NCBI RefSeq assembly: GCF_025698545.1 | Contig: NC_068569.1 | Span: forward strand, 6,944,001-7,008,000 | Reading direction: 5' to 3' | Length of the DNA: 64,000 nt | Source of the DNA: Gossypium raimondii | Taxonomy: Eukaryota; Streptophyta; Magnoliopsida; Malvales; Malvaceae | In this document: piece by piece, positions 24,330 through 60,820 of the stretch | How the letters are laid out: each line of letters starts with the position of its first letter | Numbering within the stretch: the stretch's first letter is position 1 | The notes under the pieces: generated by a model | What the model saw: only the letters and a program-made list of their open reading frames with translations | Told to the model about the DNA's origin: nothing | Databases searched by the model: none | Translations under genes and position numbers: made by a program

Positions 24330-24728
24330 AATAGTCAATTTTGTTTGTTTTAGATTATATTTTAGTCACTTATGTTTGAAATGTTATGTTTTAGTCACTT
24401 ACGTTATTGTTTTGTTACAAAATGGTCACTCTACCGTTAAGCTCCGTTACCTCCCTAACAGCGATCCTACGTGGCAATCCAAATGGGTTTTAAATGCCAA
24501 CTTAAATGTCCTACGTGGCAGTCCAAATTAAATTTATTTAATTAAAAACCTATTTTCATCTCAGCAACTGCACATCTAAGTTAGCATTTAAAACTTATTT
24601 GGATTGTTACGTAGGACTGCCGTTAGGAAGGTACGGTAAAGTGACCACTTCGTAATAAAACCATAATGTAAGTTTTCAAACACAAGTGACTAAAATATAA
24701 TCCGAGTCAAACAAAAGTGACTCTAAAT
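24330..24728. mobile_element. Fold-back (MITE-like) element, about 400 bp
   Basis: The two halves are inverted copies of each other. The left arm has GATTATATTTTAGTCACTTA then GTTTGAAA; the right arm read backwards has GATTATATTTTAGTCACTTG then TGTTTGAAA. Similarity continues inward through TCCTACGTGGCAATCCAAAT (left) and TCCTACGTAACAATCCAAAT (right, reversed), so arms are about 180-190 bp around a loop near 24,520-24,570. No coding capacity. A target duplication could not be defined, so the superfamily is unassigned. Confidence 0.65.
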
Positions 24729-24737
24729 AAGATTGGT

Positions 24738-26283
24738 TGTAACTACCCGATACTCACGGGTGTGGGAAAGTGTATTTTTGAGACTCCATTTTCATAAATT
24801 GGACTCGTAAATATTTATTAAAAATGTAATTAGGTTTTGGTTAGGTGAATTTGCATGAATTAAGAGTAATTAGGTAAAAAGACTAAATTGCATAAAGGGT
24901 AAAAGTTAAATTATAGATTAAAGAATAATTAAAAGGACTAAATAAGCAATTAAGCCTTTATTCCTACAAGCGGGTGGTAGTGATTGCATGTGTAAAAATA
25001 ATATACATATGTATATATTAATAAAATATGTATTACTTAATTTTTAAGTAAATATATATAATATAATAATAAAGTAAATATAATAAAATAAACAAGTAAA
25101 TGAAACAAATAAAAGAAAACAAACGAAACAGAAGGAAAAAGAAAGAAAAGGAAAGAAAAGGGAAAGACCAAAGTTAGGGGTTTCAAAGTTTCAAGCTTAA
25201 TTGGTTAGTCAATTTAGTCTTTTTTTTCTTGTAATTTTATATTTTGAAATTCGGTATTAAATACTACCCAACTCATGTCAAAATTTTAGAATTTTTTAGT
25301 TTTTAAGTGTTGTCTATGTTGAATAATTTTAGTATTAGGGACTAAATTGATAGATTTTAAGTTAGAAATGAAAAAGGATTGAATTGTAAAATAAATTGTA
25401 AATTTTGAGTAATAGGGACTAAATTGTGAAAATTTTGAAATTTAGGGATTTAAGTGAAAATAGGAGTTAGTTTAAAGTGAAATTTGTGTGAAAATATAGA
25501 ATTAATTGTAAAAGAAATAAAGTTAGTCTCGATTTAGGGACTAAATTAAAAATTAGGCAAATATTGAGTAAAAATTTAAAATATGCAATATGAAATTGAA
25601 TTGTGTTGTGTTGTATTGATGAATTTTATTGTTTTAATTTCATAGCTAACGTCGTACCGGAACCTTCGACTAAAAAGGAAAAAGATAAAGTCGACGAGGA
25701 ATAGTTGGAATTTTCGGTTTGTATTTCTATAATCCGAATCTAGTTATTAATTGTTGTATTCTGATTTAATTCTTATGGTAAGTGGTTGAGGTGAGTATTT
25801 GACATTTTGGTATTGAATTAAATTAAAGTTGATGGAAATTTATTGAATTGTTATATATATATTATGATTGTATTGATTATTTGAATTGAATTGAATTCAC
25901 ATGTATATGTGATTATATGAAAAATTTATATTGGATATTGGTTGTTTTTGAAATGTGAAATTAAACCCTATTAACTGTATTGGGCTAAATCGGATATAGA
26001 TGACATGCCATAGGATTGGAAGAGTTCAGAGATTTCTTTGACTTCGAGTCGATGAGACATTGGGTGTCAATTTACTACTTCGGATTAATTCGATGATGCA
26101 CTGCATGCCAATTTACTTCGGTTTAGCCGATGAGACACTGTGTGTCAATTTATTACTTCAAATTATCCGATGAGGCACTGGATGCCAAACTGGTGTGTTT
26201 TGGTTGGATCCGTGTATCCGTCCAAGTCATGTTAATAGGGGTAAATAAATAATAAAGTTTTATAATTGATATTGAAATGACAT
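24738..26283 (+). mobile_element. LTR-like unit, copy A (old, Ty3/gypsy-like)
   Basis: Begins TGTAACTACCCGATACTCAC, the TG-start style of plant gypsy LTRs, and is a direct copy of the sequence beginning at 26284 (offset 1,546 bp). Both share GGAAAGTGTATTTTT near the start, a polypurine-rich middle, GGATTGGAAGAGTTCAGAG, the hairpin array, and TTGGATCCGTGTATCCGTCC near the end. Compared with copy B it stops short at its right end. No protein-coding part is present. Divergence between copies suggests an old insertion. Confidence 0.6.
26047..26190. repeat. Hairpin array in LTR copy A (4 units)
   Basis: Four units about 37-42 bp apart, each with a short stem-loop: 26056-26068 GACAT-TGG-GTGTC, 26097-26109 (imperfect), 26134-26146 GACAC-TGT-GTGTC, 26174-26186 GGCAC-TGG-ATGCC. 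Each is preceded by CGATGA or a near match and followed by CAATTT or CAAACT. Confidence 0.6.
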
Positions 26284-27913
26284 TGTAATGACCTGATAGT
26301 CATGGGTATTGGAAAGTGTATTTTTAGGTCTCCGTTTTCATAAAACGGATTCGTAAATATTTATTAAAAATATTTACGAAGTTAGTTGTGTGGTTAATTA
26401 GGTTTTGGTTAGGTGAATTTGTATGAATTAAGAGTAATGAGGTATAAGGACTAAATTGCATAAAGTGTGAAAGTTGAATTATAAATTAAAAATAAAAGGA
26501 CTAAAGAAGTAATTAATCTTTATTTCAACAAGTGTATGGTAATAATAATTACATGTGTAAAATAATATACATATACATATTAATAAAATATGTATTACTT
26601 AATATTTAAATATATATATTATTATAATAATAACTAAAAGAATAAACAAAATAAACGAAAGAAAAAGAAACAAAAATAATTAAAACGAAACAGAGGGAAA
26701 AAGAGAGAAGAAAAGGAGAAAGCTAGGTTTTCAAAGTTCAAAGCTAAATTGGTTAGTCAATTTAGTTCTCTTTTTTTAATTTTTTTTGGTGTTTTAGATA
26801 CTACCCAACTTATGTCAAAATTTTAGAAATTATTGAGTTTTTAAATGTTGTCTATGTTGAATAATCAGAGTTTAGAGACTAAATTGATAGATTTTAAGTT
26901 AGAAATGAAAATGATTGAATTGCGAATAAATTATAAATTTTGAGTATTATGGACTAAATTATAAAATTTTTGAAATTTAGGGATTTAAGTGAAATTAGAG
27001 AGTTAAATCTAGTTTAAGGTGGGAATTGAATGAAAATTTAGAACTAATTGTGTAGAAATAAAGTTAGTCTCAGTTTAAGGACTAAATTGGAATTTAGGCA
27101 AATGTTGAATAAAAATTGAAATATTCAATGTGAAATTGAATTGTATTGTGTTGATGAATTTTAATTGTTTTAATTCCATAGCTAATGTTGTGTCTGAAAC
27201 CTCGATTAAGAAGGGAAAAGATAAAGTCAACGAGGAATAGCTCAGGGATTCTAATTATTAATTCTTGTATTTTGATTTAATGTTTATGGTAAGTAATTGA
27301 CGTGAGCATATGACATTTTGATATTGAACTAAATTGAATTCATTGTACATGTGATTATATGGAAAATTGATATTTGATATTGATTGTTATTGAATTGTGA
27401 AATTGAAACCCTATTAACTGTATCGAGCTGAGTCGGATATAGATGGCATGCCATAGGATTGGAAGAGTTCAGAGATTCTTTGACTATGAGTCAATGAGAC
27501 ATTGGGTGTCAATCTATTATTTCAGATTAATTCGATGAGGCACTGGGTGCCAATTTATTTCGGTTTAGCCGATGAGTCACTGGGTGTCAACTTATTATTT
27601 TGAATTATTCGATGAGGTACTGAGTACCAAACTGGTGTGTTTTGGTTGGATCCGTGTATCCGTCCGAGTCTGAGTCGTGTTAATAGGGGTAATTAAATGA
27701 AATGATACTATGATTGGTATTGGAAAGCATTGAATGTGAAATCAAAATGAGACACGTTGATTGTGTATCATATTGTGAAAAGCTATTTGAGATAGCAAAT
27801 GATAAGAACTGAATATGTTATGAACTAATTAATTGAATGGTTATTGTTATTGTATGATTAAATGTGCATGTTATATTAATTTTGCTTTTAAACATTTGGA
27901 TTATAGAAATACC
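26284..27913 (+). mobile_element. LTR-like unit, copy B (old, Ty3/gypsy-like), split by a younger LTR
   Basis: Begins TGTAATGACCTGATAGTCAT and follows copy A throughout, then carries on for about 200 bp beyond the point where copy A ends. It is interrupted after 27913 by the solo LTR; sequence of the same element resumes at 30878 (TACCACTGAGTTTATACTCA). No coding part is visible. Direct tandem LTR-like copies suggest either unequal recombination or one LTR inserted into another. Confidence 0.6.
27489..27632. repeat. Hairpin array in LTR copy B (4 units)
   Basis: Counterpart of the array at 26,047. Stems: 27498-27510 GACAT-TGG-GTGTC, 27539-27551 GGCAC-TGG-GTGCC, 27576-27588 GTCAC-TGG-GTGTC (one mismatch), 27616-27628 GGTAC-TGA-GTACC. 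Units differ by paired changes that keep the stem. Confidence 0.65.
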
Positions 27914-30877
27914 TGTAACAGCCCGATTTTGGGCCTAGTCGGAACAGTGGTTTCGGGACCACAAATCTGACAAGGAAAAAATTTATTTTTCTTATATTTT
28001 TATGGTCTACGATTTCACGGAATTATTTTGTAAAAATTTTGTTCGAAAATTTCGACGTTTGGGCACTCAATTTAGTCAAAAGGACTAAATTGTAAAAAGT
28101 GCAAAAGTTGAGTTCTACAAGTTAGAGGTGTCTAATTATTATGAAATTTTAAATTGGAGGTCCTTAAATGGTAATTAGACCATTGGTTATTTATGGACAA
28201 AAATAGACATGGTTAGTAAGTAAGCTATTTAAGGGCATTTTGGTAAAATGCCTTAATTAATGAATAAAGACAAAATAACATGAAATAAATTATCATCTTC
28301 TTCAATTCTTTTCTTCATGGCCGTATGTAGCAAGGGAACACCATGGCTAGGGTTTGTTCATCTTACAAGCTTCATGGTAAGTCCGTTCTAGCCCCGTTTT
28401 TCTTGTTCTTTGTATTTTTCGCATCCCGATAACTTGCTTAAGCTATCTCTACCATTAATTCGAGCTAGAATTTATGTCTGAAAAATTACCCATAGATGAA
28501 AAGTGTGAATTTTGATGTTTCATGATAGAATATGAAGCTTAGAATTATGTTAAGCAACTTTTGCTAAGCGATTTTGAGTGAAAACGAGTAAAACGACATA
28601 ATCGATAAAAATACTAAATGTTCATAAGTAAGTGTTAGAGTTGGAATTTGATGTTTCTATAGAAGGGAAAAATGTTCAACATGTCATAATACATAAGAAT
28701 AAGGGATGAAGTTTAATTTACGAGCTTTGGGGCAAAAGTGTAAATATGTAAAAGTTTAGGGGCAAAATTATAATTTTACCAAAGTTTGAGTCAAGGACTG
28801 TTTTGATAAATGTGAGTACTAAATAAGTCAAATGTGTTATTATAGATCAAGAAAGAAGTGGAATCGACCTTGACCGGAGAAAAGGAAAGATTAAAGACTA
28901 AATTGCTAAATTTTTATATTATTGCATCAAAGTAAGTTACGTGTAAATAATAGTTATATTTTTATAAATTGTGAATTATATTTGATATGTGAATTAATAT
29001 TGAATGTGGAAGGAAAATTGTTCATGAATTATTCAAGTGATAAAGTGTTTAAAATAAAGTGTTAAGTGTAAATTCCCGGTTGAACTTAGGAATAGAAGTG
29101 GATACAAGTGACATGTCACTAGAGATCGATGTTACTGATGTTACGGTGAGTCCCGGTGCTGGGTGATCTAGCATGTGTTGCGAGACACGACGACTTGTGT
29201 GAGCGGGCCCGTGGACATTTCCGTGTTATTGATCAGTGGTAGCTTCGGCTACGTATCAGTGGTAGCTTCGGCTACGTATCAGTGGTAGCTTCGGCTACGT
29301 ATCAGTGGTAGCTTCGGCTACGTATCAGTGGTAACCGGCTACATATCGGTGGTAACCGACTACGTATCGCTGGTAACCGGCTACGTATCGATGGTAACCG
29401 GCTACATATCGATGTGGCACTTATGTGCTAATTCTCTACGTATCTATGTATATTCCGAGTGTTCAACGGGAAATTGACTAAGTGTAATTGAATAATGAAT
29501 ATAGGTGTGGAACTGAATTGAATATCGACTTAGAAATGGAAAAGTAAATTTTGAATTGAATTGTGATTGAAAGTGAAAAAGTGAAATTATGAAAGAGTAC
29601 ATTTAGCAACAAAACAGTTTAGACAGCAACAGTTGTGTGACTTTGAAAATCACCAAAATGGTGGAAATTTAATTAGAGGCTGAATAATATATGAAATTGA
29701 AGCTTAATGAGTCTATTTTCACATAAAAGAAATAGAAAAAGCAAAAGAGTTATATATTTTGAGATATTTGAAGTTTAATTAGACAGAGTCAGAATGAGTT
29801 TGGAATCCCCTGTTTTGACTTTGGAAAATTGTAAAAAATTGTACAAAAATAATTATGGGATAAAGTTTATATGTTTAGAATTATCAGTGAATCTATTTTT
29901 ATGAGAAACAAACGGAAACTATATCCGAATTCTGTACAGTGAGATAATTAATTTTTAGTGAAGAGAGGTCAGAACTGTCAAACAGTGAAACAGGGGAAAC
30001 TTTAAAGAATAAACTGTACTATTTGGCTAAACCAAAAATTATGAAAATTTTATGGTAAGAATATATGTGAATCTAGTTTTGGATAAAATTTACGGATCTT
30101 AATTTGGAGTTCTGTAGCTCCGGGTAAAAATAATTTAGTGACTATGACTCGAATAGACAGCTTTGAATATACATGTTAGTGAATAGAGAAATTATAGTTA
30201 ATGTTGTTTAAATGTGATATACACATAAAGGATGTGGAATGGAGAGGAGGAGGAGGACAATAAAATGTAGGAAATAATTGTGTATAATGGTCATATGCCC
30301 GATTATAATCGGTAAATGTTAAATTGAATGGTAAATACGTATTGGTACCGAAGGAACTATTGCGGTTTTGAAAAGCAATTGACCAAATGTATAAGAAATT
30401 TAGTCTTGATATATATATATGATAATAATGATATATGGATGATTATATCATTGAGTTGCATTGATTAATTCGGTTTATGTCATGGAAATGTCAAGAACAT
30501 TTGTCTTTGATATGTGATGATCATGGTTTAAGCTCATATGGGAAAATAAAGTTTCATAGTATGAGAGTGTGGTATTGAAATATATATATTGGATTGAGAA
30601 ATTAATTTGAATTGTGAACACGAAATATTGTGAATTGAATAAAATGGAAATGGAGCTTTGAATTACATAAGTAAGTATCGGGTCTCGTAGGCCCTATTTG
30701 TTATGAATATAATATTTTGAGGATATGTTATAAAGAATTATAAAAGCATGTTAAAAATTTGAAGAGTTTAAATTTGAATGAAATTTTGTAACTCAGTTTA
30801 ATACGTTTACATGTGTAAGTGTTCTAGTAATGCCTCATACCCTATTCCGGAGTTGAATACGGGTAAGGGGTGTTACA
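27914..30877 (+). mobile_element. Solo LTR, 2,964 bp, Ty3/gypsy-like
   Basis: Starts TGTAACAGCCCGATTTTGGG and ends AAGGGGTGTTACA, so the ends are the inverted pair TGTAACA/TGTTACA. It is flanked by a perfect 5-bp direct repeat ATACC (27909-27913 and 30878-30882), the integrase-type target duplication. No internal region or open frame is present, so it is a single LTR left after recombination between the two LTRs of a full element. It sits inside older LTR sequence and is therefore the youngest layer of this island. Assignment to gypsy rests on end sequence and length, not on a protein. Confidence 0.8.
29232..29407. repeat. Minisatellite with TTCG hairpins inside the solo LTR
   Basis: Four exact 23-bp units (29232-29323), each ATCAGTGGTAGCTTCGGCTA plus CGT, then four 21-bp units (29324-29407) in which AGCTTCGG is shortened to AACCGG or a near match. 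Each 23-bp unit holds the perfect stem-loop GTAGC-TTCG-GCTAC; the 21-bp units keep a near-palindrome GTAACCGGCTAC. Confidence 0.9.
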
Positions 30878-32130
30878 ATACCACTGAGTTTATACTCAGC
30901 GTATGATTTTGTTTTTCGTGCACAGGTTAGGTACTTAAGTGTGATCGCCGATTCAGCATCCATCAACGATCCCGATCTCAAACGTGGTGATGTATATTTC
31001 TTTTGTGTCGGCATGTACCTAGGGTGTCTAAATGTTAACTATTTTGTGGTTTAGTTATAAACAATATTATAATTTTAATGTTGGTTGATATATATAAGCA
31101 TGTGTTTGTGTTTGAAGTTTTAATATGGTATGTCAAATTAATGTTTAAGTGTTCATGATTTAGGTAAAATTTTGATTGAAATTGGTATGTTTATAATATG
31201 GATTAAATGATGTTTAAATTAATATATTTTGATAATATAATTGTGGTACCTATGAGGATACAATGGTTAGACATTTAGGTTGATTATTTTGACATGTTTT
31301 GAAGGTATTTGATTGTGCTTTGAATTGGTTGAATGAATGATTTTTGAGTTGCTTGGTGTCTAAGATTGTAGGGATTGGTAAACTTGTTGTTTAAGGTTCA
31401 TTTTGAGTCCACACGGCCAGATACACGGGCGTGTGACTGGATCGTGTGAGACACACGGCTAATACATTGGCGTGTGGTTTGGCCATGTATCCCCTGTAAC
31501 TTTAAAATTTTAAAACAGAATGCTCAAATATTTTCACATTGGCAGAGACACGGGCATGTGTTTCAGCCGTGTGTGGCATACGGCCTAGCACACGAGCGTG
31601 TGACTTTGCCGTGTGAACCCTGTACCTTAATATTGTAAGTCAGTATGCTCACACGGCCTAGCACACGGACGTGTGGCTTGGCCGTGTGACATAAGTCAGT
31701 GAGCACCCAATTTTAGACACGGTTTAAGGCATGAATTGAGTATTGCATGACTAATGCCATTGTACGAATAAATATGGTTTGATATGTGAATAACCATTTA
31801 TATAGCAATTGTGTGAATTAGGATATTGTTTAAATAAAAAAAATTATAGTCATGATACTAGACATTAATATGTCCTTATAATTTTAATTGTGCTTATTAT
31901 ACTGTTTTGTCTTTAAATATTTGGATTATAGAAATACCATTGAGTTTTACTCAGTGTACGATTTTGTTTTTCGTGTGCAGATTAGGTACAGTGATTTTGA
32001 CGAGTTGTAATTGAGGTTGTGAGCATCTATCTCACTACATCTCCAAGTGCCAAGAGGGTTTGTTTCAAAAGTTTGAATAGAATGGCATGTACTTAGGAAG
32101 ATCAAATGTGTTCCAAGTAGTAAGGACAAA
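30878..32130 (+). mobile_element. Older LTR-element sequence right of the solo LTR
   Basis: Resumes the interrupted element. The stretch from TTTGGATTATAGAAATACC (27,895) plus its continuation at 30,878 (ACTCAGCGTATGATTTTG, then TTTTTCGTGCACAGGTTAGG) occurs a second time at about 31,917-31,990 (ACTCAGTGTACGATTTTG, GTGTGCAGATTAGG). So at least two related LTR-like or leader segments lie here. No coding part. The right end is not sharply defined. Confidence 0.5.
31409..31690. repeat. CACACGG / CCGTGTG palindrome-rich repeat block
   Basis: About three imperfect units of 115-125 bp, beginning near 31409, 31,545 and 31,650. Each has ACACGGC, then ACACGGGCGTGTG or a variant, then GGCCGTGTG or a variant, and ends near CCCTGTA. 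The motif ACACGG..CGTGT is its own reverse complement, so every unit can pair with itself. Confidence 0.7.
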
Positions 32131-45456: not shown

Positions 45457-45528
45457 GTCGTTGTAGTATAGTGGTGAGTATTCCCGCCTGTCACGCGGGC
45501 GACCCGGGTTCGATCCCCGGCAACGGCG
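45457..45528 (+). tRNA. trnD-GUC: tRNA-Asp (GTC)
   Basis: 72 nt and a complete cloverleaf. Acceptor GTCGTTG pairs with CAACGGC, with discriminator G. The D arm has TAGTATAGTGGTGAGTA. The anticodon stem CCCGC/GCGGG encloses CTGTCAC with anticodon GTC. The T arm is CCCGG-GTTCGAT-CCCCGG with the internal B box GGTTCGATCC. There is no intron and no encoded CCA. A run of T begins at 45535, a normal RNA polymerase III terminator. Sequence is that of a nuclear cytosolic tRNA rather than an organelle copy. Confidence 0.96.
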
Positions 45529-60208: not shown

Positions 60209-60820
60209 GGGTGTGCAAAATTCGAGTAAAACTGAAAAAATTCGGTTAATCGACTGAATTCGGTTAATCGATCGGTTAATCGAATTTTTTTGGTCGGGAG
60301 TCGGTTAATTATTTTTTGATTTTTCGGTTAACGGTTAATTCGGTTCGAAACCGGTCGGTTAACAGAATTTTTTCGGTTTAACCGAAAAAATTAGTAAATA
60401 AAATTATAATATATAAATAGACCCACTATTCACCTAAACCCAATCCAAACCCAAGTATTCAACCCAACCCAATCATAAAAATTAGAAATAATTTAATAAA
60501 TAAAAATAAAATTCTAAAACTAAAACTAAAGTCTAAAAGTCTAAAAATAATTTAATTATGTAGTGATTCAATTCGGGTAATTCGGGTAATCCGGTTAATT
60601 CGGTTAATTCGGTTAATTCGGGTAATTCGGTTAATTTTTAATTTAAAATAAAAAATATATAATTTTCTGTTAATTCGGTTAACTGACCGAATTAACCGAA
60701 AAAATTTCGGTTCGGTTAAATTTTTTTTAAAAAATTTCGGTTCGATTAACGGTTAAAAATTTTGAAAGGTCGGTTAATTCAATTAATATTATTTCGGGTC
60801 GGTTAACCGAATGAACACCG
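60209..60820. repeat. TTAATTCGGTTAA-rich element, about 610 bp
   Basis: Made largely of overlapping copies of CGGTTAATTCGG/CGGTTAACCGA on both strands (60,240-60,380 and 60,565-60,800) around an AT-rich core that has a run of AAACCCAATCCAAACCCAAG-like text. The ends GGTGTGC and GAACACC are loosely inverted. No coding capacity. It looks like a non-autonomous, self-complementary element common in dicots. Confidence 0.5.

Follow-up and report, generated by a model that had tools for sequence, protein, structure and literature searches.

Retroviral packaging signals and the Rev response element are multi-hairpin RNA domains closed by a long-range stem. In plants, tandem-repeat enhancer arrays occur in long terminal repeats (LTRs), and to our knowledge few cis-acting RNA signals are known for LTR retrotransposons. 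Retrozymes are plant elements with hammerhead ribozymes (PMC4918200). In the literature on plant LTR hairpins and RNA structure, as far as titles and abstract openings show, we recognised no description of a structured LTR domain like the one considered here. This domain was found in Gossypium raimondii, in a window that corresponds to the whole stretch of 64,000 nucleotides analysed (NC_068569.1, positions 6,944,001 to 7,008,000 of the forward strand). Two nested LTRs of this window, copies A and B, contain arrays of short hairpins. We propose that these hairpins are part of a conserved, structured domain of nucleic acid carried by the LTRs of a Ty3/gypsy-type lineage, which may work as RNA and, least certainly, as a cis-acting signal; we rate this proposal as evenly balanced between right and wrong.

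Like the Rev response element and the packaging signals, the cotton domain combines several hairpins with a long-range closing stem, in this case by prediction only. Like these signals, it would also be restricted to unspliced RNA if the splice-like motifs on either side of it are used. It differs from them in that it lies inside a plant LTR and holds near-identical hairpins in tandem, of a kind that changes from one LTR type to the next. Enhancer arrays of plant LTRs are likewise tandem repeats, whereas the cotton repeat is a hairpin with complementary arms enclosed in a long-range stem. The likeness to retrozymes is that both are plant retroelements with structured RNA, which is predicted in the cotton case. 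With plant Ty3/gypsy LTR retrotransposons, the cotton elements have in common the TG...CA LTR ends, the TGGTATCAGAGC primer-binding site (PBS), and, between the LTRs, pieces with protease, RNase H, integrase and SH3_Tf2-1.

A predicted long-range stem in two nested LTRs

In copy B, the predicted domain (27409..27688; all features are given on the plus strand) is bounded by two arms, 27409-27418 (CCCTATTAAC) and 27679-27688 (GTTAATAGGG), which are complementary at 10 of 10 positions and 260 bases apart. An inverted repeat of the same arrangement bounds the domain of copy A (25966..26240, arms 25966-25975 and 26231-26240), and the block measures approximately 275-280 bases. The minimum-energy fold and the duplex prediction of copy B add an inner closing helix, whose 5' arm (27434..27441) pairs with 27655-27662. 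It is followed by a 12-base palindrome, ATGGCATGCCAT (27443..27454), with a counterpart in copy A at 26000-26011. Genome-wide counts, here and below, were made in the 751-Mb assembly of 281 contigs with reversed patterns as controls. The outer-arm pattern was found at 946 sites, each appearing twice because the pattern is the same on both strands, and at none with the control. When 27398-27695 is folded, the closing stem is present in both the minimum-energy and the centroid structures (z -2.56). Duplexes between the 5' and 3' flanks are stronger than those of dinucleotide shuffles in A (-31.2 kcal/mol, P 0.0004), in B (-33.0, P 0.0006), and in the two further LTR types described below, C (-35.5, P 0.0002) and D (-30.2, P 0.0002), as well as in loci L079, L154, L159, and L106 (P 0.0005-0.0015); these P values are not those of a blind search, because the inverted repeats were already known when the segments were chosen. 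A general search for long-range inverted repeats of at least 11 bases returned two in the window (0-1 in block shuffles), neither of them at such an array, and in the loci mostly the motif GGACTAAATTG. This motif is present in both orientations within LTR loci L013, L016, L017, L047, and others, and forms long-range inverted repeats there.

The 5' part of copy A (24738..26282) starts with TGTAACTACCC and was delimited by aligning it with copy B and with further copies in the genome. Copy B, which is 77% identical to A, interrupts it (5' part, 26284..27913), and a short 3' piece of A matches near 31884-31938. Copy B is itself split at 27913 by LTR C (27915..30877, TGTAACAGCCC...GGGGTGTTACA), an LTR of the TTCG-hairpin type. 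The motif ATACC is present on each side of C, no second LTR was seen beside it, and B resumes at 30878. The 3' part of B (30878..31720, with a right end placed approximately by eye) continues ATACCACTGAGTTTATACTCAG like other copies. It also harbors, at 31410-31689, an array of CACACGG...CCGTGTG inverted repeats, likewise observed in L017 and L022.

In this lineage, the LTRs are about 2.75-3 kb long, and several fuller copies elsewhere in the genome end in ...GGGTTAGGGGTGTTACA or nearly so. The PBS junction GTTAGGGGTGTTACA-N-TGGTATCAGAGC, searched as TGGTATCAGAGC within 8 bases of GTTAGGGGTGTTACA, was found at 331 genomic sites against none for the control; we take TGGTATCAGAGC to be the PBS for tRNA-iMet. 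Locus L122 carries an array-type LTR with this junction. One C1 element has the array in its 5' LTR (L124/L122) and in its 3' LTR (L053), with gag-pol pieces in between. Six of the eight pieces of its interior (L143) match Pfam (zf-CCHC, RVP_2 twice, RT_RNaseH, rve with H2C2, and SH3_Tf2-1); two have no Pfam match, among them a piece that looks like a reverse transcriptase. We therefore read the array-bearing LTRs as those of a Ty3/gypsy-type element. Among the 20 PBS-linked stretches that were examined, one has the array, which makes the LTR superfamily wider than the array type.

The same layout in other LTR types

The first-pass annotation of this DNA had proposed that two LTR types built their hairpin arrays independently. 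This view has to be revised: the units are indeed unrelated, but the layout of the closing stem and the palindrome are the same and the 5' flanks are homologous. In LTR C, the block of about 410 bases (29068..29478) is closed by arms at 29068-29085 and 29461-29478, with a middle helix pairing 29089-29094 with 29451-29456, and encloses its own TTCG array at 29232-29410. Its order is TTCCCGGTTGAAC with GTTCAACGGGAA, GGAATA with TATTCC, GGATAC with GTATCT, then a palindrome, GTGACATGTCAC (29108-29119), which is the counterpart of ATGGCATGCCAT, and the array. A better placed pattern of the C-type outer arms has eight genomic matches and none with the control (four against one for the first pattern). 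A further type, D (L140, a stretch upstream of a PBS junction), was found through the shared motif GGATA...TGNCATGNCA. It combines TTGAACC/GGTTCAA, GGATACAA/TTGTATCC, and ATGACATGTCAT with a 25-base array in which the arms are GAGC/GCTC and one unit is GAGTT/AACTC. The D-type inner arms have three genomic matches against none for the control. A second occurrence of the D signature, 7.6 kb from the first and oriented alike, is what two LTRs of one element would give; a single further one lies on C12.

For B, C, and D, both the minimum-energy fold and the centroid fold contain the closing stem. When the 5' flanks are aligned, 7 (B-C), 1 (B-D), and 0 (C-D) of 1000 letter shuffles reach the observed score. 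The 3' flanks align weakly (58, 13, and 20 of 1000 for the same comparisons), and each is still complementary to its own 5' flank. In the structural alignment of the outer stems of B and C, three of ten pairs differ, all on both sides (T-A to G-C, A-T to T-A, and T-A to G-C). These changes are not C-to-T decay, because they are transversions. Two pairs distinguish the palindrome of B from that of C, and each difference is compensated. The LTR types thus share a homologous domain that holds different arrays, rather than having invented it independently.

Three other loci bear on the diversity of these LTRs. The scan by motif for further domain types covered loci longer than about 520 bases. In L034 (positions 20-230), an insertion of this LTR family cuts a fragment of a fourth LTR type, which has the GAATACAAATGATATGTCATTAG motif along with hairpin units of the forms GTAC-TCT-GTAC and GCAC-TAT-GTGC. 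In L051, a type A/B domain is followed by a downstream part similar to LTR C, which may mean that modules are exchanged between LTR families. L040 is a type-C-like LTR in which no array was seen by eye in the stretch 1900-2820.

The domain also stands out by its conservation. Among 20 loci picked by the unit pattern with free stems and fixed flanks (L041-L060), and compared by best local alignments rather than over whole LTRs, the domain is closer to copy B than the upstream LTR is in all 19 with a long upstream match; in the remaining one, L055, the upstream match covers 48 bases only. A profile of 36 copies, biased toward the array since likeness to it was the basis of their choice, gives the block 27404-27643 a mean identity of 0.89-0.93, compared with 0.76-0.80 at 27284-27403 and 0.64-0.77 beyond 27684. 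A value of 0.90 is also attained at 26884-26963, the one other such stretch. These data bear on a different origin, in which the closing arms would be the terminal inverted repeats of a small transposon, similar to a miniature inverted-repeat transposable element, that inserted into an ancestral LTR and has no function in the retroelement. A size of 275-410 bases and terminal inverted repeats of 10-18 bases would fit such an insertion. Nevertheless, 19 of the 20 loci retrieved by the unit pattern, although picked regardless of LTR, lie in the same LTR and not at many unrelated sites, and no target-site duplication was seen by eye at the arms. Furthermore, few stretches in the compared part of the LTR are as well conserved as the block, which starts at a similar distance from the LTR start in B (1125 bases) and in C (about 1155 bases). 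We consider this origin very improbable.

Alpha and beta hairpins

The two arrays of four units with 5-bp stems reported by the first-pass annotation are present in copy A at 26047..26190 (hairpins 26056-26068, 26097-26109, 26134-26146, and 26174-26186) and in copy B at 27489..27632 (27498-27510, 27539-27551, 27576-27588, and 27616-27628). These alpha units start at 26051, 26092, 26129, and 26169 in A and at 27493, 27534, 27571, and 27611 in B, with spacings of 41, 37, and 40 bases in both. The earlier description of stem quality is also accurate: three of the eight stems are perfect (26134, 27539, and 27616), two depart from this by T.G pairs only (26056 and 27498), and three have one or two mismatches (26097, 26174, and 27576). 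A 20-base unit pattern with at most three mismatches retrieves exactly these eight units in the window and none in 100 shuffles. When none of the ten stem letters is specified, the unit pattern matches 933 units in the genome, and one with the control.

Among the copies fetched, the usual array has GACAC/GTGTC in units 1 and 3 and GGCAC/GTGCC in units 2 and 4. The third stem, GGTAC/GTACC, occupies unit 4 in one subfamily, which includes copy B, and unit 2 in another; a third subfamily lacks one unit and has one GCGC/GCGC-like unit. In the main family, 259 of 366 units with a five-base stem have one of the three perfect stems (138, 99, 22), and the centre of the hairpin is TGG in 294 of 368 units. 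Because unit types are fixed by their position in the array, the stem differences observed in the window are mostly inherited unit types combined with one-sided decay. Divergent relatives (L144-L163) have four-base stems (GCGC/GCGC, GTGC/GCAC) with a TGG-like loop, several of them with GGCAC/GTGCC as last unit; this paired change of stem length is suggestive.

A second series of hairpins, beta, is interleaved between the alphas. Its form is TCGNN-loop-NNCGA, the final CGA being that of the constant CGATGA flank of the units. According to the column pairs in 91 copies and segment counts, the beta hairpins of copy A (26038..26170) are located at 26038-26052, 26080-26093, 26118-26130, and 26158-26170. 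Those of copy B (27480..27612) occupy the same columns at an offset of 1442 (27480-27494, 27522-27535, 27560-27572, and 27600-27612). Beta types include TCGACT/AGTCGA, TCGGT/ACCGA, TCGGC/GCCGA, and TCGGA/TCCGA, and TCGGT/GCCGA is a T.G form. The CGATGA flank also resembles the core letters of hammerhead ribozymes. We rejected a hammerhead or retrozyme origin: no Rfam hammerhead match was obtained up to E 5 in 20 loci and in 24600-32000, and CGA is half of the beta stem. At the gathering score, Rfam has no match in the window except a tRNA at 45457. Below it, we took as chance RAGATH-30 in L144 (E 4.5) and U18, U54, and bxd_5 in 24600-32000 (E 1.8-4.4). A mir-202 match in LTR C (30688-30764, E 0.0082, 27.1 bits for a gathering score of 51) is probably chance too.

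Paired changes were analysed on a tree of array copies. The 117 aligned rows mix loci similar to the window arrays and loci among the pattern-search matches listed; removal of the duplicate of the window reference and of 7 gapped rows left 109, and removal of 18 rows in shifted register left 91. Using our own tree-aware null rather than R-scape, we counted 10 branches on which one Watson-Crick pair is replaced by another, for 4.6 expected (P 0.007). Two C-G to T-A double changes, both at stem position 3, map to single ancestral branches with 12 and 17 descendants. Among the 51 pairs tested, six have P <0.02, and the two ancestral ones have P 0.001 and 0.002.

The first-pass annotation had interpreted the matched variation of the stems as the mark of a conserved structure. 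The excess of paired changes on the tree agrees with this, but most of the variation reflects array positions that differ from one another in a fixed way, nothing other than transitions separates the main alpha stem types, and co-changes are not specific to the true partners. Co-changes of any kind number 13 at true pairs; displacing the partner by -3, -2, -1, +1, +2, and +3 gives 15, 14, 15, 8, 8, and 2, so that slidings of -1 to -3 do as well as the true pairing. Because of these transitions and slid pairings, the array alone is modest evidence. The same two observations would fit a mutational origin, in which the arms came to match without selection on structure, through symmetric C-to-T decay where sequence contexts are identical, through template switching by the reverse transcriptase, or through exchange from unit to unit. 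This would also fit the occurrence of the same GGTAC/GTACC change in units 2 and 4, and the four-base stems of family 2, most of which have a CG core in its TG or CA form. We had tried these stems as a larger sample for covariation and rejected them, since their pairing excess over 60 pattern matches is weak (P 0.035 and 0.46) and is mostly put down to CpG decay. Yet the differences in the closing stem and in beta include two-sided transversions (T-A to G-C, A-T to T-A), and the block is better conserved than the upstream LTR. Moreover, exchange between neighbouring units does not explain the closing arms, because they are at least 260 bases apart. A purely mutational origin is, in our judgment, decidedly unlikely.

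Besides the transitions and the slid pairings, several other observations weigh against the proposed domain. On the plus strand, array A alone folds near random (z -0.65) and array B only moderately (z -1.99), and in the folds of A and B the alpha arms of different units are often paired with one another instead of the two arms of a unit. The third beta hairpin has an A.C mismatch in 79 of the 91 copies, and co-changes on internal branches alone amount to 2 for 0.68 expected (P 0.15). The palindrome of copy A has one one-sided mismatch, and the exact number of compensated outer pairs between B and C depends on the placement of an extra G in C, which the aligner puts elsewhere. The outer repeat was not found in the examined stretches of L144-L149. 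Finally, flank duplexes are about equally strong on the minus strand (P 0.0002-0.0006) and LTR C folds better on it (z -6.5 against -4.3). With both strands folding to a similar degree, the folds do not single out a transcribed strand. One-sided T.G cells outnumber A.C cells in alpha by 64 to 38 (36 to 16 at the loop-closing pair, 28 to 22 elsewhere); we drew nothing from this tally for the choice of strand.

The absence of strand preference in the folds, and arms that are symmetric on both strands, would also be expected if the palindromes and arms were DNA-level dyads. They would then be sites for dimeric DNA-binding proteins in an enhancer, insulator, or anti-silencing array, symmetric because the same protein reads both half-sites. 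Tandem arrays in LTRs can act as enhancers. Against such dyads, most alpha units keep TGG at their centre and the half-sites change jointly between types, the reverse of the usual half-site pattern, and the closing arms are 260-375 bases apart, with matched differences between LTR types. On balance, we regard binding sites of this kind as an unlikely explanation, though one to be kept in mind.

Splice-like motifs and possible role of the domain

The domain is flanked by two motifs resembling splice sites. Upstream, a donor-like GTAAGT (TATG|GTAAGT) is located at 27289..27294 in copy B and at 25778-25783 in copy A, and GGTAAG is conserved in 44 of 48 rows. Downstream, an acceptor-like CAG follows a T-rich run at 30923..30925, with AG in 43 and CAG in 38 of 49 rows; in both cases, the rows include some overlapping loci. 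In several LTR copies, a short inverted repeat, CTGAGTTTATACTCAG, and its variants (CTGAGTATTCCCATACTCAG in L051) lie directly upstream of the acceptor-like CAG (30884-30899 and 31940-31954 in the window). A different structured repeat is present at 60260-60700, where the inverted repeat CGGTTAATTCGGT / ACCGAATTAACCG, with arms about 340 bases apart, surrounds a 9-base tandem repeat, AATTCGGTT.

Lying between the donor-like and acceptor-like motifs, the block may belong to an intron of the LTR leader. We propose the following model for the conserved structured domain. A long-range irregular stem would close it around the 12-base palindrome and a chain of short hairpins, in types A and B alpha (5 bp, TGG loop) and beta (5-6 bp) by turns. 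What is inherited would be the closing stem and the palindrome, while other LTR types would hold unrelated hairpin arrays. The domain would act as RNA, in the LTR transcript, and, if the splice-like motifs are used, only the unspliced (genomic) RNA would carry it. From its position between these motifs, we infer a cis-acting element on unspliced RNA, which might serve for export or for recognition and packaging by Gag, the least certain step of the model; the repeated hairpins would provide several putative binding sites. That paired changes preserve the closing stem in three or more LTR types suggests that the RNA of the element needs the shape of the domain. The structure is the better supported half of this model; the choice of RNA over single-stranded DNA, the strand, and the function are inferred. 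More speculatively, the LTR intron might contain an RNA module similar to the Rev response element or to a packaging signal, with a slowly evolving closing stem and a swappable cassette of hairpins rebuilt from unrelated sequence, so that structure and not sequence is inherited. We put forward this version tentatively, as possible but on the doubtful side.

A structured domain found across divergent LTR types, in hundreds of copies in one genome, would offer a concrete target for studying how these elements mark their genomic RNA. It would also be a case in which hairpin arrays are rebuilt while the architecture that holds them is inherited.

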